64,000 bases of DNA from an uncultured Ignavibacteria bacterium. Lineage in GTDB: Bacteria; Bacteroidota; Ignavibacteria; SZUA-365. This document shows positions 26,070-36,140 of the stretch, piece by piece. The stretch lies in assembly GCA_913061095.1 (NCBI GenBank), contig CAJXVM010000010.1:62001-126000 (forward strand). The letters are read 5' to 3'. The notes beneath the pieces are model-generated. The model did no database searches, was not told the DNA's origin, and saw only the letters and a list, made by a program, of their open reading frames with translations. A program made the translations under genes and the position numbers. The first letter of the stretch is position 1. Each line of letters begins with the position of its first letter.

Positions 26070-26960
26070 ATGCGCCGATTCCTCGTTGTGCTGATGTTCG
26101 GGATCCTCACTGCCTGCGTCGCGGAGTCCGCAGCCGGATGCCAGCCGCTGCATGTTTCCGATACCGCGTCATCCAGACCGGATCCCGGATTGCACCATCC
26201 CACTTCACTCATTCACTCCTATGCCTGTTCACCATCTGAAACGTCCTGTCCCGGTCGAGACAGCCTCGTTTCCGTGGATCCGGACGATCCTCCCACGGAC
26301 GATCAGGCCGGGGAGGAGAATTTCGTCACGAAAATCTGGCTCTTCCTTCGCGGCTTCATTCTTCCCGATGAACTGACCCTGATCTACGAGCTCCGGTCGT
26401 GGCTCAGTCGCCAGGATCCCCTGCATCCCCGGACGCGTGCGGGAGACCTGCGCCGCACGGATGAGATTTACCATCGCGCTGTGTATCTTGCCGAAGGCGA
26501 TGCGGTGCTGGCGATGCTGGGCTGCGCCTGGGCGACGCTGCCGTATCACACGTTCCCGGCGCGCGTGCCGCTCATCGATGTCGGCATCACCGTGCCCGTC
26601 TCGACCGAGCGCAGGGACGCGTTCGAGCGACGCATGGCGAACATCCCCGGGATGCTGTTTTCAGATTCCCCGCGCGCACTCGACCGTGACAAGCTGCCGC
26701 ATTTTTTCGGATCCGCCTGGCTGCAGCTGCTGACAGGAAGACCGGGTGTGGCGACATTCGCCGGAGAGGCGCTGGAATGGGCGGAATCGATATTCAAGCT
26801 GGAAGGATCACGCGATGCCCGTGACATCGCCGTCAATCATCTCGGTGTGCAATTCGCCCGCGCGCTGCAGCAGCATCGCGACGTACTGCCGTCTGACATT
26901 CTGAAACTCGAACTGGATTCGCATGAGCTCAGGAACAACGCACAAGATCCTGCTCGTTGA
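26070..26960 (+). CDS. Unknown lipoprotein-like protein
   Basis: No family recognised. The 296-residue protein has a lipoprotein-type N terminus ('MRRFLVVLMFGILTAC', lipobox LTAC with Cys16), a Cys/Pro/Ser-rich low-complexity stretch (~20-75), and a mainly helical, charged domain (~85-290) with 'GFILPDELTLIYELRSWLSRQDPL', 'GCAWATLPYHTFPARVPLID' and 'DAFERRMANIPGMLFSD'. The gene starts 3 bases after the carboxyltransferase stop and its end overlaps the sigma-54 regulator by 38 bases, so the three are likely one transcript. Repeated hydrophobic segments such as 'AWLQLLTG' suggest a compact periplasmic fold. Function unknown. Confidence 0.7.
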   Translation: MRRFLVVLMFGILTACVAESAAGCQPLHVSDTASSRPDPGLHHPTSLIHSYACSPSETSCPGRDSLVSVDPDDPPTDDQAGEENFVTKIWLFLRGFILPDELTLIYELRSWLSRQDPLHPRTRAGDLRRTDEIYHRAVYLAEGDAVLAMLGCAWATLPYHTFPARVPLIDVGITVPVSTERRDAFERRMANIPGMLFSDSPRALDRDKLPHFFGSAWLQLLTGRPGVATFAGEALEWAESIFKLEGSRDARDIAVNHLGVQFARALQQHRDVLPSDILKLELDSHELRNNAQDPAR

Positions 26961-28290
26961 CGACGAGCAAAGCATCCGCGACACGCTCCGCATGACGCTG
27001 GAGTACGAGGGATTCGAGGTCGCCGATGTCGACAGCGGCATCAGGGCGCTCGAGAAAATCGACGAGATTCGCCCCGACGCGATCATTCTCGATGTGAAGA
27101 TGTCGGGACTTGACGGCATCGAAACGCTCGAGCGTCTGCGGGAATCGCATCCGCACATCCCCGTCGTACTGCTGACCGGACACGGAAGCATCGAAACGGC
27201 GGTGGAGGCCACGAAGAAAGGCGCGTTTGATTTCCTCTCCAAGCCGCCCGACCGGGAGAAAATTCTCATCACGCTTCGGAACGCCATCCGCCAGACGGCA
27301 CTGCTGCGTGAAAACATCCGCATGCGCGAGGAGATCGAGGGACGCGACGTCATGGTCGGCTCGTCGGCGGTCATGAAGGATCTGCGCGCCACCATCGCGC
27401 GCGTGGCTCCCACCGAGGCCTTTGTGCTGATTACCGGTGAAAATGGAACGGGGAAGGAGCTTGTCGCGCGCGCGCTGCATCGCCAGAGCTCCCGTGCATC
27501 GCGCGAACTCATCGAAGTCAACTGCGCGGCGATACCGCATGAACTGATCGAGTCGGAACTCTTCGGCCATGAGAAGGGCGCGTTCACCGGCGCGACGGGG
27601 CAGCGCATTGGAAAATTCGAGCAGGCGGACGGCAGCACGCTCCTTCTCGATGAAATAGGGGATATGAGCCTGTCGGCACAGGCGAAGGTGCTGCGCGTTC
27701 TCGAGGAAGGAGCGATCGAACGCGTCGGCGGAAACAAGCGCATCAGCGTGGACGTGCGCGTCATCGCCGCAACGAACAAGGATCTCTCCTCGGAAATCAG
27801 TGAGGGGAATTTCCGCGAGGATCTCTACCACCGTTTGAATGTCATCCCGATTCACGTGCCGCCGCTGCGCGACCGCCGCGAAGACATCCCGGACCTCATC
27901 CGCTTTTTCCTCGCCGAGAGCAGCAGCAAGAACAAGCTGCCGCCCCGGGAAATCGACGATGACGCGGTCGATCGTCTGAGAGGCATGCCGTGGTCGGGAA
28001 ATGTCCGTGAACTGCGAAACGCCGTCGAGCGCCTGGCCATCATGGTCTCCGACCACATCACCAGCACCGATGTCGAACGCTACGTCCTTGGCGGACCCAA
28101 TGCGCTCGACAACTCGCTGTCGATGGATCTTTCATTTCAGGAATTCAAGGACAGAGCGGAAGAACTTTTCCTGCGCCGGCAGCTGGAACGCTTTGACTGG
28201 AATGTCAGCAGGACGGCAGATGAACTTGGCATTCAGCGCAGTCATCTGTACAAGAAAATCAACAAGTACGGGCTGGAGCGGGATTCCTGA
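26923..28290 (+). CDS. Sigma-54-dependent response regulator (NtrC/ZraR type)
   Basis: Two-component transcription activator acting with sigma-54. Receiver (~8-120) with D57 as phosphorylation site ('IILDVKMSG') and acidic 'VDDEQ'; AAA+ domain (~140-375) with Walker A G172 'GENGTGKE', sigma-54 contact loop GAFTGA (219-224), Walker B 'LLLDEIGDM', 'RVIAATNKDL', and 'WSGNVRELRN'; C-terminal Fis-type helix-turn-helix (~420-455, 'NVSRTADELGIQRSHLYKKI'). Full length at 455 residues. No histidine kinase gene is adjacent; the sensor is unknown. No sigma-54 type -24/-12 site (TGGCAC-N5-TTGC) was noticed in the intergenic regions examined by eye. Confidence 0.95.
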   Translation: MSSGTTHKILLVDDEQSIRDTLRMTLEYEGFEVADVDSGIRALEKIDEIRPDAIILDVKMSGLDGIETLERLRESHPHIPVVLLTGHGSIETAVEATKKGAFDFLSKPPDREKILITLRNAIRQTALLRENIRMREEIEGRDVMVGSSAVMKDLRATIARVAPTEAFVLITGENGTGKELVARALHRQSSRASRELIEVNCAAIPHELIESELFGHEKGAFTGATGQRIGKFEQADGSTLLLDEIGDMSLSAQAKVLRVLEEGAIERVGGNKRISVDVRVIAATNKDLSSEISEGNFREDLYHRLNVIPIHVPPLRDRREDIPDLIRFFLAESSSKNKLPPREIDDDAVDRLRGMPWSGNVRELRNAVERLAIMVSDHITSTDVERYVLGGPNALDNSLSMDLSFQEFKDRAEELFLRRQLERFDWNVSRTADELGIQRSHLYKKINKYGLERDS

Positions 28291-28668
28291 TCATCTGCCG
28301 GATTGAGACGCACGGGTCGTATCCGATTCCACGCGCATGGAATCGGCGGTGGTCAGACGCTCGAAACGCTCAATGGTTTCACGATAGAGGGCTTCGGTAA
28401 GTTCCCTGTCCTGCGCCGTGCGCCGCGCAGCGGCGAAGAGAGCCGCCGTGTCGGCGTCATGCTCCTCCAGAAGGGAATCAACCGCCGCGCGCAGACGCAG
28501 CGTATCTCCACGGTACAGCTCACCGAGGTAGATGATTTCCGAGTATACATGACGGAACTCCCCGTCAGAAAGAGCATCGGAACCGCCGTCCCGCGAACAG
28601 GAAACGAAAACGAACGTGATGGCGGCACACAGCACGCACAGAAACAGCGATGGGAATTTCATGACCAT
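28291..28668 (-). CDS. Small unknown lipoprotein
   Basis: About 125 residues; no family recognised. N terminus 'MKFPSLFLCVLCAAITFVFVSC' is a lipoprotein signal with lipobox FVSC, so the mature part begins with Cys. The rest is helical and charged ('EFRHVYSEIIYLGELYRGD', 'DSLLEEHDADTAALFAAAR', 'FERLTTADSMRVES'), similar in layout to small DUF4296-like Bacteroidetes lipoproteins, though I cannot confirm this. Its stop abuts the sigma-54 regulator stop (28290/28291). ATGs at 28668 and 28662 are both possible; GGGGA lies 4-5 bases before the first. The second shares its CATG with the divergent EamA start codon. Confidence 0.7.
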   Translation of the reverse strand: MVMKFPSLFLCVLCAAITFVFVSCSRDGGSDALSDGEFRHVYSEIIYLGELYRGDTLRLRAAVDSLLEEHDADTAALFAAARRTAQDRELTEALYRETIERFERLTTADSMRVESDTTRASQSGR

Positions 28669-29542
28669 TTTTCCCCGGGCGGACCGGTATCTTCTCGCGA
28701 TTACACTCATCTGGGGATCCACGTTCTCGGTGACAAAAGTTGCGCTGACCGACCTGCCGCCCCTCATGCTGCAGGGAATGCGGTTCTCGCTTGCGGCGCT
28801 CATGGTTGGAATCTATACCTGGCGTGACATCAAAGCAACTACGCCCGGCTCATTGAAGAGCGGTCTCATCCTGGGACTGCTTCTCGGACTCGGCTTCACT
28901 TTTCAGACTGTCGGACTCGTGCACACCACCGCTTCGAAGGCAGGATTCCTCACCGGGACCATGGTCGTGTTCACGCCTCTCCTGCAGCTGTTGATTGAAC
29001 GGCGCATGCCGAGTTTCGGGAATACCGCAGGGGTTCTGATCGTGGGCATCGGACTCTACATCTTCACCTCACCTGCGGGCGGAGATTTCAACCTCGGTGA
29101 TTTCCTCGTTCTCCTCTGCGCCGTTGCATTCGCATTTTACATTGTCTATCTCGATGTATTTACCAAGGCGGAATTCCGCCGGGAGATCGTCTTTTACCAG
29201 TTTGTCGTCACTGCCGCCGTTGCCTTCGCCATCGGACCCTTCCTCGAATACGGCGCTCCGGAGTTCACCATCGATGCCATGGGAGCAGTGCTCTATCTGG
29301 CGTTTTTCGCCTCCACCGTTGCGATTTTTGTTCAGTCGAAGTACCAGCGGGAAACAACGCCAACGCGGGCGGCTATCATATTCACGATGGAACCGGTGTT
29401 CGCAGCACTGATCGCCTTTTTCGCACTGCGGGAAACAATGGGTGTGGTCGAAGCCACCGGTGCCGCGGTGATGGTGGCAGGACTGCTGTTCTCGGAACTG
29501 TACGGGCTCCGCGGGAAGCGCGCATCAGATAAGTCCGCTTGA
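28661..29542 (+). CDS. EamA/DMT-family transporter
   Basis: Inner-membrane exporter-like carrier of the drug/metabolite transporter superfamily, 293 residues. Two EamA repeats, each of five predicted membrane helices, are seen: first (~5-140) with 'YLLAITLIWGSTFSVTKVAL' and 'FTFQTVGLVHTTASKAGFLTG', second (~150-285) with 'GDFLVLLCAVAFAFYIVYLD' and 'PTRAAIIFTMEPVFAALIAF'. The 'FTMEPVFAALIAF' motif is the family's conserved Pro/Glu helix. Substrate unknown. Its ATG (28661-28663) shares the CATG with the divergent lipoprotein start, so its promoter must lie inside that gene; an in-frame ATG at 28619 would extend it into the lipoprotein gene. The end overlaps pmbA-like by 18 bases. Confidence 0.92.
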   Translation: MTIFPRADRYLLAITLIWGSTFSVTKVALTDLPPLMLQGMRFSLAALMVGIYTWRDIKATTPGSLKSGLILGLLLGLGFTFQTVGLVHTTASKAGFLTGTMVVFTPLLQLLIERRMPSFGNTAGVLIVGIGLYIFTSPAGGDFNLGDFLVLLCAVAFAFYIVYLDVFTKAEFRREIVFYQFVVTAAVAFAIGPFLEYGAPEFTIDAMGAVLYLAFFASTVAIFVQSKYQRETTPTRAAIIFTMEPVFAALIAFFALRETMGVVEATGAAVMVAGLLFSELYGLRGKRASDKSA

Positions 29543-30850
29543 CGCTCCGTAGAGTGCATCCTTGACACGGAGAGGCGGGAGAAGCATGGGTACATACGTT
29601 CCTGTCGTGGAGGTATGTTCGGGGATGCCGGCATCCTCGAGTTCCTTGAGCATGTATACCGGTGTCTCGCGTATCATCAGGTTGCGTACCGCGCCGGTGA
29701 TCGTTCCGTCCTCAATCATGAAGAGTCCATCCCGCGTGGAACCGCTGAGCAGGCAGTTCTTCGGGTCGATCATGCGCAGGTCGGCGAAACCGCTCACAAG
29801 AAGTCCCCGCGAAGTGCCGGCGATCAGCTCATCAAGCGTCTGCTCGCCGCCGTCCATCATCAGGTTCGTCGGCGGAGCGACGGGTTCGATGCCGCGTTCG
29901 TCGGCGGTATAGCGATCGACCGCCACCTGCTCGATCACACCGTTCCGAATCCAGGTTTCCGGTTTGACGGGAATGCCGTCAAGAGTGAATGGAAGGGAAA
30001 GCAGTCCCTGTGCAGCGGGATCGGAACGAAGCGTGACAGTTTCCTTGAACATTTTGCTGCCGACAAAACTGCTTCCGTCGAGTTTCCGCAGGAAGCTGCC
30101 GTCCTCTTCAATCGCACGCTGCGAAAACTGCTGGATGAAGGGAGCGAACAGGTCGGCAAGCGCGCGCGGCTCAAAGACGGTTGTGATGCGGGTGGGGTCG
30201 ATCTCGACAGGGTTCCGCCACGCGGCGCACTTGTCGATGGCGGTTTGTACCGTACGTTCGATGCGGGACGTATCCAGGGAGGAAGAGAAGTGTTCTCCGA
30301 ATCCGGTGCTCTGCCCGTTGCTCGCATAGACGCGAAACCGTGTGTGGATTCTGTCCGAGGGATGATGAAGCAGCAGTCCATTCGAGGTCGCGACAGAGAT
30401 CGATGAGCGTGTCGCGGCGATGCTGCCGGAGATCCGCATGTCGGCGCCGGTGGATTGACCGATCACGCCGCGGATGACTTCGGCGGAGGGGATGCGCATC
30501 TGTGCGCTGTCATCGGCGGCTGGCTGTGCGCTTGCATCCGCACCGGGAAACGGAAACACACGCGGCGATTCCGGCATGACCGACGCGTGGCGTGCCGCAC
30601 GTTCGACGAGTGCGTTCAGTCCTTCCTCACTCAGGTCGTTTGTGCGCGCGCTGCCGTAGCGTCTTCCGACGCGGACAGTGATCTGCAGGGAACTGTCGGA
30701 CGTCCGATGCGGGGCGTCGGGCAGGTTCTCCGCGATACGAAACACGGTGCCGTCCGTACTGCGAAGCACGGCATGTATTTCATCGACGCGGTCGTTCTGC
30801 ATCAACCCGGCAAGCAGCCGTTCCGCCTGCCTTCGAGAGAGAAAACTCAT
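29525..30850 (-). CDS. TldE/PmbA-like protein
   Basis: Member of the TldD/TldE (PmbA) family, which in E. coli forms a heterodimeric zinc peptidase that degrades unfolded peptides and matures microcin. The 441-residue protein has the family layout: N-terminal domain with 'EIHAVLRSTDGTVFRIAE', and a C-terminal domain with 'TTVFEPRALADLFAPFIQQ', 'VGSKMFKETVTLRSDP', 'GLLVSGFADLRMIDPKNCLLSGSTRDGLFMIEDG'-like core, pieces of which are typical of PmbA. TldE is normally the non-catalytic subunit and no HExxxH is present here. Start 30850 overlaps the tldD-like stop as ATGA and has GGAGG upstream. It is translated with the tldD-like gene. Confidence 0.87.
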   Translation of the reverse strand: MSFLSRRQAERLLAGLMQNDRVDEIHAVLRSTDGTVFRIAENLPDAPHRTSDSSLQITVRVGRRYGSARTNDLSEEGLNALVERAARHASVMPESPRVFPFPGADASAQPAADDSAQMRIPSAEVIRGVIGQSTGADMRISGSIAATRSSISVATSNGLLLHHPSDRIHTRFRVYASNGQSTGFGEHFSSSLDTSRIERTVQTAIDKCAAWRNPVEIDPTRITTVFEPRALADLFAPFIQQFSQRAIEEDGSFLRKLDGSSFVGSKMFKETVTLRSDPAAQGLLSLPFTLDGIPVKPETWIRNGVIEQVAVDRYTADERGIEPVAPPTNLMMDGGEQTLDELIAGTSRGLLVSGFADLRMIDPKNCLLSGSTRDGLFMIEDGTITGAVRNLMIRETPVYMLKELEDAGIPEHTSTTGTYVPMLLPPLRVKDALYGASSGLI

Positions 30851-32400
30851 CCTGCCTCCTGTGCGGTATAGACGGGGATGCGACGGAACACGGCGGCGGG
30901 AACGGACACGGAAAACGGCACCTCCCACAACGCGCTGCTGCGCCCGGGAAAAAGGTCACCCGCCGTGATGCGTTCGTTGTCAGAGCTGAGCATATCGAGC
31001 GCCTTCCAGAACTGCTCAACCGAGGTCTCGATTTCCACACCCCTGACAGGCTCAGCGACCTCTCCGCCGCGTATCATCCAGGCCATCTGCGGACGGACAC
31101 GGAACAACGTTTTCGCCGGATTCATCATCACCCGAGATCGGCCTTTGACGAGCAGGCCGTTGTCCACGTTCGCTGCGAGTTCTGTTACGGTTCCTCCGGT
31201 CCCGGCATTCATGACAATATTCGGCATCGCGGCGGCGACGGGGATGTTCCACATGCCGGTTCGCGTGAATCCGAGTGTCTCGAAACCGGCGAGACGCGGC
31301 AGTGTCTCGTCGAAAGGGAGACGGACGACGCGCCCCGCATCGACGATTGTCCCGGAGGGGGAGGGACGTCCTGTGTCGTCCCAGCCGCAGCTTGCGAGAC
31401 CGCGCGGGAGCGATGAATCCGCTCGCAGCGTCAGCAGCTCGGATCCCACGGTGATGTTTGCGAGGTTGTTGATGTCGATCCACTGATCACCGGGACGGTT
31501 GCCGTCGAGCGCGAGCACAGTGCGGGGATCGAGATGGGGAAGGAGGGTATCGAAGAGCAGGTCCCAAAGAAGTGTTGGATGCACGACGAGGTCATAGCTG
31601 TCGCGCGCAACGGGATCGGCGGTCTGCAGCTTCAGCGCTTCCTGCATCGATGTCTCAAGATCGCTTTCGAGTGACGCGTTGACGATTTCCCATCCCGCAG
31701 CCTGTGCTTCGAGGCTGCTGCTACGGGTGTCCATGCGGCGCAGTCTCTGATGGAAGGCCGTCACGGCGAAATTCGGATAGGTGAACGTGCTTCGCTGCCG
31801 GAGGACTGCGTCGCGGGAAGTCACCAGTTCCGATTCCATGCGGCGGAAGAACAGGTTGGCGACGGCGAAGGGGATTTGCGATATGCTCAGAGCTTTTTCC
31901 GTCAGACCACGGAGGACGTCGATTTTCTCCTCGATGGAAACGGCAAAGGGATCCGTTTCCATCGGGGATTCCCAGGCCTGCCGGCCGGCTTGCTCCCGTG
32001 ATGACAGATCGATATCCTGTGTGCGAAGTTTCGCGAGCTGGGATGCGGAAGCGATTGCGGCGGATGCGAGTGCGTCGGGACGACCCGGCTCCCATGACGA
32101 GACCGCGGCGCTTCCCCAAGCGCCTCCGCTGAACACCCGCAACGCGATTCCTGCCTCATCACTGCTCTCAAGAGCGGAAATGTCCGTTTTCCGCAGCTGA
32201 AGCATTTCGGAACGATCACGGCGGAAGAGCGCTTCGGCATAGGTCGCACCGGCATCGAGAGCGCTCTGGACGGCATCCTGCAGCCAGTCGGTTTTCACGA
32301 CAGGCGCAGCGGGTGCAATGCGATGTGATCGAAGGTCCAGCGGAGTGAGCGCCGCGGCGGCGGTGAATGCAGAGGCCTGAAGGAATGTTCGTCGTTTCAT
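30847..32400 (-). CDS. Tat-exported TldD-like protein lacking the zinc motif
   Basis: TldD-family fold, 517 residues. The start 'MKRRTFLQASAFTAAAALTP' is a twin-arginine (Tat) signal, so the protein should be exported folded. TldD landmarks are recognisable: 'EALFRRDRSEMLQLR', 'VGSELLTLRADSSLP', 'GTIVDAGRVVR', 'PNIVMNAGTGGTVTELAANV', 'GEVAEPVRGVEIE'. But the catalytic HExxxH, expected around residues 280-290, is replaced by 'VVHPTLLWDLLFDTLLPHLD', and the later Cys that completes the zinc site is absent. No HE pair occurs in the whole protein. It is therefore probably not a zinc peptidase, unless the site is rebuilt. Start at 32400 precedes the Tat motif directly. Its ATGA overlap with the TldE-like gene indicates a matched pair. 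Confidence 0.85.
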   Translation of the reverse strand: MKRRTFLQASAFTAAAALTPLDLRSHRIAPAAPVVKTDWLQDAVQSALDAGATYAEALFRRDRSEMLQLRKTDISALESSDEAGIALRVFSGGAWGSAAVSSWEPGRPDALASAAIASASQLAKLRTQDIDLSSREQAGRQAWESPMETDPFAVSIEEKIDVLRGLTEKALSISQIPFAVANLFFRRMESELVTSRDAVLRQRSTFTYPNFAVTAFHQRLRRMDTRSSSLEAQAAGWEIVNASLESDLETSMQEALKLQTADPVARDSYDLVVHPTLLWDLLFDTLLPHLDPRTVLALDGNRPGDQWIDINNLANITVGSELLTLRADSSLPRGLASCGWDDTGRPSPSGTIVDAGRVVRLPFDETLPRLAGFETLGFTRTGMWNIPVAAAMPNIVMNAGTGGTVTELAANVDNGLLVKGRSRVMMNPAKTLFRVRPQMAWMIRGGEVAEPVRGVEIETSVEQFWKALDMLSSDNERITAGDLFPGRSSALWEVPFSVSVPAAVFRRIPVYTAQEAG

Positions 32401-32497
32401 GTCGCGTCTGCGCCAGTGAAGCAAATCGTTCTGGAAGATAGAGACTGCATGCGAGTTGTAAAAACATTTGGTATTTTGCCCGGCGACGATGCGTACG

Positions 32498-32761
32498 ATG
32501 TACTGCACCATATCCGGACTTGTTCAGGGCGTTGGTTTTCGCTACTTCGCTTCAGTGCGCGCACGTGCACTTGGACTGCGCGGCTGGGTGCGAAACCGTT
32601 ACAACGGTGACGTGGAAATCGCCGCACAGGGTGATGACGACGCGCTGCAGGACTTTCTCGACGAACTGCGTTCGGGGCCGCGCTCGGCACAGGTACGCAA
32701 GGTGCGCGTCGACTGGCAGGAGGAAGAAGAGATGTACGACAGTTTTGAGATACGCGCATGA
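32498..32761 (+). CDS. acyP: Acylphosphatase
   Basis: Hydrolyses acyl phosphates such as acetyl phosphate. The 87-residue protein has both family motifs: 'GLVQGVGFRYF' with catalytic R15 and 'GWVRNRYNGDVEI' with catalytic N33. The ATG at 32498 gives the normal length; earlier in-frame starts at 32468 (TTG) and 32489 are less likely. A TATTTTGC sequence at 32472-32479 resembles a -7 box, but no TTG lies at the right distance. First gene of a seven-gene plus-strand run; it overlaps ispF by four bases (ATGA) and diverges from the tldD-like gene. Confidence 0.95.
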   Translation: MYCTISGLVQGVGFRYFASVRARALGLRGWVRNRYNGDVEIAAQGDDDALQDFLDELRSGPRSAQVRKVRVDWQEEEEMYDSFEIRA

Positions 32762-33249
32762 CAGGACTTCCGTTCCGCATCGGCCTCGGCTATGATGTGC
32801 ACCGCCTTGCCCGCGGGGAATCCCTTGTGCTCGGCGGAGTGTCGATTCCCTCGGACGTCGGTACGGTCGCGCACAGCGACGGCGACGTGCTTCTGCATGC
32901 CATCTGTGACGCCTTGCTGGGTGCCGCGGCACTCGGTGACATCGGTGAGCATTTTCCGGATACCGACGAACAGTATCGCGACGTGTCGAGCATCGAACTC
33001 CTGCGCCGCTGCATCGCCCTGCTCGACGAGCATGGCTGGCGCGCCGGAAACCTGGATGCCATGCTCATGCTTGAGCGTCCAAAAATCCTGCCGCACAAAC
33101 ACGAGATGCGCAGCCGGATCGCCGAGGCCATGCAGCTGCCGCTGGATCACATATCCCTCAAGGCCACGACAGGGGAGGGCATCGGGTTCGTGGGGCGCGG
33201 TGCCGGTATCGAGGCGCAGGCTGTTGTTCTCCTGCTGCCGAAGGACTGA
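32758..33249 (+). CDS. ispF: 2-C-methyl-D-erythritol 2,4-cyclodiphosphate synthase
   Basis: Fifth step of the MEP isoprenoid pathway: CDP-ME-2-phosphate to MEcPP plus CMP. The 163-residue protein is complete, with metal-binding 'GYDVHRL' (Asp, His), 'SDGDVLLHAICDALLGAAALGDIGEHFPDTD' region (His ligand and substrate loop), and the C-terminal 'KATTGEGIGFVGRG' signature. Because it makes a trimeric enzyme with its active site at the interface, the intact motifs suggest activity. No other MEP gene is in the window. Translationally coupled to acyP by ATGA. Confidence 0.97.
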   Translation: MTGLPFRIGLGYDVHRLARGESLVLGGVSIPSDVGTVAHSDGDVLLHAICDALLGAAALGDIGEHFPDTDEQYRDVSSIELLRRCIALLDEHGWRAGNLDAMLMLERPKILPHKHEMRSRIAEAMQLPLDHISLKATTGEGIGFVGRGAGIEAQAVVLLLPKD

Positions 33250-33255
33250 CCGCCC

Positions 33256-33885
33256 ATGCTGGAGGAAATCGTCGCCACACTCTCGAACGTCGACTTCGTC
33301 TGGATTTATCTCGCGGTATTCGGCATCGCCTACATCGAAAACATTTTTCCTCCGTTCCCGAGCGATGTGATTGTTGTGTTCGCCGGCTCACTGATCGCCA
33401 TCGGGAAGGGCAGTGCGCTGATCACTGTCCTTATCGCGACCGGGGGCAGCACGCTCGGTTTCATGTCGATGTACTGGATCGGGGATCAGTTCGGCACACG
33501 GATTCTCGAAACCGGGCGCATCCCGTTTATATCCATAGAAACCGTGCGGAAGGTGCAGGCCTGGTTCGGCCGCTACGGCTACTGGGTGGTCATCGGCAAC
33601 CGCTTCCTCGCGGGCACGCGCGCCGTGATCAGTTTCTGCACCGGTATCGCGGAAATGAACATCACGGTGACGGCGCTGCTCTCCGCGGTCAGCGCTCTGC
33701 TGTGGAATTCCATCCTCGTGTATCTCGGATATGTGGTGGGCGATAACTGGCGCATCATTGGCGCGTATCTTTCCACCTACAGTAAAATCGTGACCGCCGT
33801 GATCACGCTTCTGATTCTGCTCTGGGCGGGATACCGCTGGTGGCAGATGCGGCGGGAACAGCGCATGAAGAACAAGGTCAATTGA
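33256..33885 (+). CDS. DedA-family membrane protein
   Basis: DedA/DUF SNARE-associated family inner-membrane protein; members transport or scramble undecaprenyl phosphate or other lipid carriers and support membrane potential. The 209-residue protein has an N-terminal 'YIENIFPPFPSDVIVVFAGSLIA' re-entrant segment (conserved E and PSD), 'GSTLGFMSMYWIGDQFG', 'GNRFLAGTRAVISFCTGIAEM' (family motif R with G-x-R) and two final helices. It begins 6 bases after ispF. Its place next to PAP2 and Lnt fits a role in envelope lipid recycling, but the substrate is not established. Confidence 0.93.
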   Translation: MLEEIVATLSNVDFVWIYLAVFGIAYIENIFPPFPSDVIVVFAGSLIAIGKGSALITVLIATGGSTLGFMSMYWIGDQFGTRILETGRIPFISIETVRKVQAWFGRYGYWVVIGNRFLAGTRAVISFCTGIAEMNITVTALLSAVSALLWNSILVYLGYVVGDNWRIIGAYLSTYSKIVTAVITLLILLWAGYRWWQMRREQRMKNKVN

Positions 33886-33894
33886 TTACTCCGC

Positions 33895-34482
33895 ATGATC
33901 GACTGGCTCTACAGCATCGACGTCGCACTGTTTCGCTTCGGCAACGAGACGATCGCCAATCCGGCGGGAGACTGGTTTTTCCCCTTCATCACCAATCTCC
34001 GGAACATGATCGTGCCCTACGCGCTGCTCGTGCTCGGACTGCTTTTCTTCGGGAAGAAACGCGGTGCGGTTACCGTTCTGCTGCTGATCGTGACGATCAC
34101 GCTCGCGGACCAGATCAGCAGCTTCGTCGTCAAACCGTGGGTGGGCAGACTGCGTCCGTGTCATGTGCTCGACGATGTGAGGCTTCTTGTCGGCTGCGGT
34201 TCGGGGAAATCATTCACATCGTCCCATGCCACGAATAATTTTGCACTCGCGGTGCTCGTTTCACACTTTTACCCCGTGGCGCGTCCATGGCTGCTGCTTT
34301 TCGCGTCACTGGTGGCTTTCTCCCGCGTGTACGTCGGCGTGCATTATCCGTCAGACATCCTCGGCGGAGCGGTGCTCGGTACGCTCATTGCACTTGCAGT
34401 TGCGTACCTGTGGGAACAGGGCAGCCGGCGCGTGACATCGTGGTACCAGACTCGCCGTTCAGCGAAAGAACAGAACACATGA
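33895..34482 (+). CDS. PAP2-family phosphatase
   Basis: Membrane phosphatase of the PAP2/undecaprenyl-diphosphatase-like family. The 195-residue protein carries all three catalytic motifs: 'KPWVGRLRPC' (C1, KxxxxxxRP), 'SSHATN' (C2, PSGH position, here SSHA) and 'SRVYVGVHYPSDILGG' (C3, SRxxxxxHxxxD). Five to six hydrophobic segments surround them, with the active site expected at the periplasmic face. Likely substrates are undecaprenyl diphosphate or phosphatidylglycerol phosphate. It lies 9 bases after the dedA-like gene and overlaps lnt by ATGA, consistent with lipid-carrier recycling. Confidence 0.93.
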   Translation: MIDWLYSIDVALFRFGNETIANPAGDWFFPFITNLRNMIVPYALLVLGLLFFGKKRGAVTVLLLIVTITLADQISSFVVKPWVGRLRPCHVLDDVRLLVGCGSGKSFTSSHATNNFALAVLVSHFYPVARPWLLLFASLVAFSRVYVGVHYPSDILGGAVLGTLIALAVAYLWEQGSRRVTSWYQTRRSAKEQNT

Positions 34483-36140
34483 ACGATATCCCGCATATTC
34501 AGACGACATCACTACTGCCGGATGATCGCCGGCGAGAGCGCCGTGTACGTATCGCGCTTGCGGTAACGACCGGTGTGCTTTTCGCCCTGGCGTTTCCGCC
34601 TGTTCCGACCGGTCTGACCGCATTTGTTGCACTTGTGCCGCTGCTGTTTCTCATCGAACGGATCGGCAGCGCTGCCGGCGTGTTTCGCTGGTCGTATCTC
34701 GCGTTCCTGGTCGGCAACGCCGGAACGATCTGGTGGATCAGCGGCTGGTGGGGAGAGGATCCCTGGCTGAAAGCAGCGGGTGTTGTGGTCAATCTCATTC
34801 ACCCTCTGCTCTTTACGCCGCCGTTGATCGTGTACCATGTCATCAGGCGGCGTACGGGATTCGCAGCCGCCGCTGCGGCCTTTCCCTTTCTTTGGACGGC
34901 CTGGGAATGGCTGCTCCACCTTCCGGAACTCTCTTTTCCATGGCTGCTGCTCGCCAATACACAGACATACGATGTGATGAATATCCAGTTCATCAGCTGG
35001 ACAGGGGCGTTTGGTCTGACGTTCTGGATCACCGGTATCACCATCCTGATTTTCGTTCCGACTCGGCAGCTCCTGCGCGGTCACTGGCAGCTTCACTCCA
35101 GGCGGATGTATGTCATTGCCGCCGTGCTGGTGCTCGCCCTGGTGCTGCCAAAGATTCATTCCGCCCTGGTTATGGATGATCCGGTACGGGCGTCGGCGAC
35201 GCTCCGCGTTGGTATCATTCAGCCCGATATCGATCCCTACGACAAGTGGGGCGCCGGCGAAACGCCGATGCAGAAGCTGCGGAGTCTTGTCGAAATCTAC
35301 GATTCTCTCGCCGCGTATAATCCCGATCTCATGCTGCTGCCGGAAACGGCGATTCCGTTTCGCATCCTGCAGCCACGCTACGACGAGGAGTGGCGCTGGC
35401 TGCGCGCGCATGTCGACAGCGTCGGCGTCCCGCTGCTGACCGGATTCCCGCATACGGTCCTGTATGAGGATCCGGCGACCGCTCCTGCGAGTGCGCGACG
35501 CATTCGCGACAGTCAGCTGCGCTGGCTGGATTTCAATTCCGCGATGCTGATGGAGCCTGGCGAGGTCGCACCGCAGATATACCATAAATCCCGTCTCACC
35601 CCGCTCAGTGAGCGTATTCCGTATCTCGATGCCCTGCCGTTTCTGCAGGACGCGCTGAGCTGGGGCGTGGGGATCAGCAACTGGGGCCTGGGAAACGACA
35701 CCACAGTTTTCCACCTGCGGAACAATGAAAAGACGATCGGTTTCTGGGCAATGATCTGTTATGAAACCCTGTATCCTTCTTTCGCTGCGGGCTTTGCGAA
35801 GCGGGGAGCGCAGGCCTTTGGTGTCATCACCAACGACGGGTGGTTCGGAAACTCATCCGGACCCTATCAGCTCAAGCAGTACACGGTGCTGCGCGCGGTG
35901 GAAAACAGGCGCGCGGTGGCACGCTGTGCCAACAACGGCATCAGCTGTTTCATCGATCCCTATGGACGCGTCCGGCAGGAAACCGCACTGTATACGCGAA
36001 CCGGCATCATCGGTATCGTGCCGCTGATCGAGGAGCAGACCTTCTATACGCGTTACGGCGACTGGCTGCCACTCGGTACCGTCGTTGTCGCGGGATTTTT
36101 CATTCTTTTTTCCATCATCGCACCCTATTACAAGACATGA
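34479..36140 (+). CDS. lnt: Apolipoprotein N-acyltransferase
   Basis: Adds the third acyl chain to the N-terminal Cys of lipoproteins, at the periplasmic face of the inner membrane. The 553-residue protein has about six N-terminal membrane helices (~20-235), a nitrilase-like periplasmic domain (~245-520) with the catalytic triad E289 ('LLPETAIPF'), K370 ('YHKSRLTPL') and C427 ('MICYETLYP'), and a last membrane helix. 'ITNDGWFG' and 'ARCANNGISCFIDPYG' are further Lnt marks. It would process lipoproteins seen in this window (18867, 26070, 28291). The ATG at 34479 overlaps the PAP2 stop; the longer open frame from 34287 lies inside PAP2. Confidence 0.96.
   Translation: MNDIPHIQTTSLLPDDRRRERRVRIALAVTTGVLFALAFPPVPTGLTAFVALVPLLFLIERIGSAAGVFRWSYLAFLVGNAGTIWWISGWWGEDPWLKAAGVVVNLIHPLLFTPPLIVYHVIRRRTGFAAAAAAFPFLWTAWEWLLHLPELSFPWLLLANTQTYDVMNIQFISWTGAFGLTFWITGITILIFVPTRQLLRGHWQLHSRRMYVIAAVLVLALVLPKIHSALVMDDPVRASATLRVGIIQPDIDPYDKWGAGETPMQKLRSLVEIYDSLAAYNPDLMLLPETAIPFRILQPRYDEEWRWLRAHVDSVGVPLLTGFPHTVLYEDPATAPASARRIRDSQLRWLDFNSAMLMEPGEVAPQIYHKSRLTPLSERIPYLDALPFLQDALSWGVGISNWGLGNDTTVFHLRNNEKTIGFWAMICYETLYPSFAAGFAKRGAQAFGVITNDGWFGNSSGPYQLKQYTVLRAVENRRAVARCANNGISCFIDPYGRVRQETALYTRTGIIGIVPLIEEQTFYTRYGDWLPLGTVVVAGFFILFSIIAPYYKT

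Follow-up and report, generated by a model that had tools for sequence, protein, structure and literature searches.

A TldD/TldE pair with a Tat-type signal whose TldD subunit lacks the known metal site throughout an order of Ignavibacteria

Sequence and fold both place the TldD-like and TldE-like proteins encoded side by side in the window (the whole stretch of DNA analyzed, 64 kb in length) in the TldD/TldE superfamily, and the TldD-like subunit no longer carries the known metal site. Because the known metal-binding and catalytic residues are replaced by other, strictly conserved ones, the pair has probably lost the known type of protease function. On balance, the evidence favors a TldD/TldE heterodimer that has ceased to be a metallopeptidase of the TldD type (M103) and that selection has retained for another role outside the cytoplasm. 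In its most likely form, judged from sequence comparisons, this would be a non-M103 shell, its subunits exported together by Tat, whose cleft is remodeled, constrained and putatively ligand-binding. The pair represents an order-wide natural case of a TldD subunit that has lost the metal site although the pairing, the export signal and the locus persist. It makes two matters testable: whether the purpose of exporting TldD/E by Tat is to assemble the heterodimer and not to load metal, and what role the TldD/E chamber may have besides peptide cutting.

The gene pair and its replaced residues

The TldD-like gene (30847..32400, minus strand) is intact from an ATG at 32400 to a TGA at 30847, and codes for 517 residues that include a Tat-type signal and lack HExxxH. 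The TldE-like gene (29525..30850, minus strand) is likewise intact from its ATG at 30850 to its end at 29525, and codes for 441 residues with no evident signal peptide. The two are joined by an ATGA stop/start overlap (30847..30850, minus strand), which is also present in most relatives of the order; the overlap described in the sequence-only reading is therefore real, and both reading frames are open throughout. PF19289 and PF01523 score above their curated cut-offs in both proteins, and PmbA_TldD domains are therefore present (TldD-like, PF19289 6e-22 and PF01523 2e-10; TldE-like, PF19289 5e-35). The single-chain AF2 model of the TldD-like protein (pLDDT 90.6, pTM 0.88) has E. coli TldD 5njc as its best Foldseek match (TM 0.72/0.77) and reaches a VIA Z of 33.0 against E. 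coli TldD 5njf, and that of the TldE-like protein (P0002; pLDDT 92.2) has a TM of 0.84 to E. coli TldE 5nj5_B. Structural matches beyond TldD/TldE entries are weak and uninformative, comprising MHC-like folds (VIA Z ≤5.5) and membrane barrels. The possibility that the TldD-like protein (P0001) is a second TldE is ruled out by BLAST scores, with an E-value of 3e-54 to the Tat-TldD L019 versus at best ~5e-9 to TldE. Its clamp region aligns with TldD, and the best Foldseek match is also a TldD.

In E. coli TldD, the metal is held by H262, H267 and C454, E263 is the general base, E270, D272 and K456 tether the clamp, and R362 stabilizes it (PMC5810440; E. coli numbering here follows that paper). 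In the former HExxxH helix of the TldD-like protein (residues 280–291, DLLFDTLLPHLD; 31528..31563, minus strand), H262 is replaced by F283, E263 by D284, H267 by P288 and E270 by D291, and H289 is a new invariant. In the former clamp (residues 481–498, GDLFPGRSSALWEVPFSV; 30907..30960, minus strand), the third ligand C454 is replaced by P485 and K456 by R487, and W492 and F496 are new invariants. Two further exchanges are D272 to R293 and R362 to A391. Both features of an M103 catalytic subunit, HExxxH and the third ligand (Cys454/Asp), are thus absent, and alignment with canonical TldD confirms the replaced site that had been proposed from the sequence. The same reading had noted that neither protein contains an HE pair. 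The dipeptide is indeed absent from both whole sequences, but a TldE without HExxxH is normal (PMC5810440), and the anomaly lies in the TldD-like protein only. Misalignment of the motif is ruled out, as the helix columns agree between hmmalign, MAFFT and a profile alignment to E. coli TldD; the third-ligand column, which MAFFT shifts by one residue when the distant E. coli protein is included, was read through the closer Cys-bearing relatives L021 and L027.

One conserved feature is at odds with complete loss of the site, in that the position of E263 holds a carboxylate (D or E) in 14 of 15 order members. The E. coli H262A mutant keeps its metal through E263, and the pair could by analogy still be a metallopeptidase with an alternative set of ligands. 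This reading is quite improbable. The H262A protein is inactive although it retains H267 and C454, both of which are lost here, and H267A misfolds (PMC5810440). A metal site of the H262A kind is, on these sequence grounds, unlikely in the TldD-like protein.

Loss of the motif across the order and selection on the cleft

Of the 16 genomes from the order, 15 carry a homologue of the TldD-like protein, and further homologues occur in some families elsewhere in the class and phylum. HExxxH is found in 0/15 within the order, versus HE[ST]xxH in 58/58 distinct Tat-TldD proteins outside it, in a survey that beyond the order covered the same phylum. The proposal that Tat-signal TldD proteins be surveyed for the lost motif has thus returned a clear division. 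Equivalents of H262, E263, H267, E270, D272 and R362 are invariant in all 58 outside proteins, and the third ligand is Cys or Asp in 56/56; within the order, equivalents of both His residues, Asp272 and Arg362 occur in none of 15 proteins, and the Cys/Asp ligand in none of 14. The third-ligand position is instead occupied by Pro (12) or Lys (2), and the second-His position by Pro (13) or Tyr (2). A loss common to all order orthologues, set against a motif kept in every protein outside, excludes a chance loss.

Three observations indicate an old loss that the order members share by vertical descent. First, the loss is common to the orthologues of the order. Second, a single change on the tree accounts for it (SH-aLRT 99), although family f3 sits on a very long branch. 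Third, the pair has one and the same chromosomal position in each of the order's three families, flanked on one side by genes for a carboxyltransferase, a response regulator and EamA, and on the other by IspF/acylphosphatase, DedA, PAP2, Lnt and threonine aldolase; in class members outside the order the pair does not lie there (0/5 checked). The stretch shared by the three families (26923–36140 of the window, and relatives L058–L069 and L036) is a housekeeping neighborhood that includes an NtrC-type regulator. These neighbors provide no hint of a function or ligand, which weighs somewhat against the favored explanation.

The former cleft appears, from sequence conservation, to have been remodeled rather than to be decaying, as indicated by purifying selection, by the single syntenic locus and by a low-entropy cleft with new residues. 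Pairwise dN/dS is 0.11–0.36 for the comparisons with a finite dS, although dS is close to saturation. In a sample of 11 full-length proteins from families f1 and f2, few and related sequences, the 18 former cleft columns have a mean entropy of 0.90 versus 1.42 for the whole protein. A mean this low is reached by only 0.25% of randomly drawn column sets, a figure that is somewhat favorable because the columns comprise the positions of the E. coli paper and a few neighbors already seen to be conserved (e.g., 285 and 289). Taken alone, the clamp stretch has low entropy (2.5% of windows), and the helix stretch is not significant (12% of windows). The new conserved residues of the cleft are P288, H289, D291, D299, G300, P485, W492 and F496.

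Long branches on the tree, and the presence in the genome of a second, Sec-type pair with HEIFGH, could be read as signs of a pseudogene or of an exported peptidase that is redundant and slowly decaying. We rejected this reading, as very improbable, on conservation, synteny and dN/dS: throughout the order the genes are uninterrupted and keep a single syntenic position, dN/dS is well below 1, and the cleft columns are conserved above average. Several members of the order, moreover, have no other TldD match by PF19289.

Predicted export and candidate roles

The N-terminus of the TldD-like protein, MKRRTFLQASAFTAAAALTPL, matches the Tat motif, and the protein starts MKRRTFLQASAF. The Tat-type signal region spans residues 1–25 (MKRRTFLQASAFTAAAALTPLDLRS; 32326..32400, minus strand), and residues 1–26 are of low confidence in the AF2 model. 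RRTFL is conserved in the order, RRxF[LI] is present in 14/14 order relatives with an available N-terminus, and TatC is encoded in the same genome. The Tat-type signal first proposed from the sequence is thus supported at the level of the motif, but the Pfam TAT_signal model scores only 14.2 bits, below its cut-off of 22.7. The N-termini of the TldE partners in the order revealed no evident signal peptide. It is established for HybOC and PaoABC that partners lacking a signal can be exported as hitchhikers, and HybC and PaoB/PaoC travel in this way (PMC4273604). Since the TldE-like protein has no evident signal, and if it pairs as in E. coli, it would have to cross as a Tat hitchhiker. The persistence of the Tat motif after loss of the metal site suggests a role for Tat export in assembly of the heterodimer rather than in metal loading.

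In the mechanism proposed here, the two proteins would be translated by coupling, would fold and pair in the cytoplasm, and the TldE-like protein would cross the membrane on the Tat signal of its partner. In the periplasm, the hollow shell may bind an unfolded peptide or small ligand in the remodeled cleft (around H289, D291, D299, W492 and F496) and may shield or hold it without TldD-type hydrolysis. The sequence-only reading had suggested an exported, non-peptidase assembly or a new function such as a scaffold or cofactor-binding protein. That suggestion in its general form fits the lost ligands, the new cleft residues and the retention of fold, Tat motif, partner and purifying selection; a scaffold or cofactor binding remains a guess.

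The same residues also allow a competing reading, in which the enzyme has been repurposed: a different metal or hydrolase site could be built from H289 and the acidic residues at 284, 291, 299 and 482, with a non-peptide or modified molecule as its substrate. All 15 order members, the distant family f3 among them, have H289 at a position that is Pro or Ala in canonical proteins. Residues D291 and D299 stand where canonical proteins have Glu, position 482 is D or E in 12/14, and other members of the superfamily reportedly act on non-peptide amides, as N-deacetylases are named in the title of Vobruba's 2022 work (cited in PMC10885120). However, conservation at T285 and D291 is not strict (V in L017; S in f3), two former ligand positions are Pro, and no known motif is recreated. 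A repurposed enzyme is accordingly a minority possibility. A similarly low probability attaches to the broader proposal that the exported TldD/E shell became a new enzyme or a cofactor or ligand carrier, with a putative site in which invariant H289 is joined by newly acquired acidic and aromatic side chains in place of the old zinc site.

Other TldD/TldE systems

A search of the genome's contigs identified two loci only. The genome has a second pair, which lies on contig C6 (L077:5700-9385) and encodes a 579-residue TldD with HEIFGH and a Cys near its C-terminus, and an adjoining 615-residue partner with a weak PF19289 match; both have Sec-like N-termini. An E. coli-like cytoplasmic TldD/TldE pair was not found in the genome by PF19289. 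As both systems are predicted to be extracytoplasmic in the same genome, the site-less TldD or its TldE could serve as a decoy or regulator, modulating the intact, Sec-exported TldD by pairing with it. Two observations render such a role improbable. First, order members G005, G008, G009 and G010 carry the site-less pair and no other TldD detectable by PF19289; in the single-contig assembly of G008, the site-less pair accounts for the only PF19289 matches, and the pair thus needs no intact TldD beside it. Second, the Sec-type TldD has its own, weakly matching partner gene adjoining it.

The favored reading, an exported shell that is no longer an M103 peptidase, can be placed among several known systems. 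The pair resembles E. coli TldD/TldE (PmbA, MEROPS M103) in both subunit folds, in the combination of one TldD with one TldE and in the aligned clamp region. It differs in that the E. coli complex is active with Zn/Fe through H262, H267 and C454, whereas here the three ligands, Asp272 and the brace Arg362 are replaced and the TldD carries a Tat signal. The E. coli complex is cytoplasmic. The Tat-TldD and TldE pairs of other families in the class and phylum share the Tat motif and an adjoining, signal-less TldE, but they keep the HE[ST]xxH motif and Cys/Asp ligand that the window protein lacks; those of other families in the class are ~21–27% identical to it over the whole length.

Two further groups of the superfamily are comparable. 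TldE/PmbA homodimers without a catalytic site (1vpb, 1vl4, 3qtd and 3tv9) are catalytically silent TldD/E-fold shells, as the window pair is proposed to be, whereas the TldD-like protein belongs to the TldD lineage, has a separate TldE partner and exhibits new invariants in the old cleft. The lincosamide PmbA_TldD proteins LmbQ/CcbQ and LmbIH, set beside the window pair by description rather than by sequence, are a precedent for non-peptidase roles, although they belong to actinobacterial biosynthesis clusters, unlike the window pair; going by the title of Vobruba's 2022 work, they are reportedly N-deacetylases. A literature search that reached few subscription journals found no work on Tat-exported or site-less TldD. 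Several genomes elsewhere in the phylum (L100; G234, G251, G289, G300, G310 and G481) contain two to four Tat-TldD copies, several of them within ~10 kb, and the sequences read from these genomes keep HExxxH.
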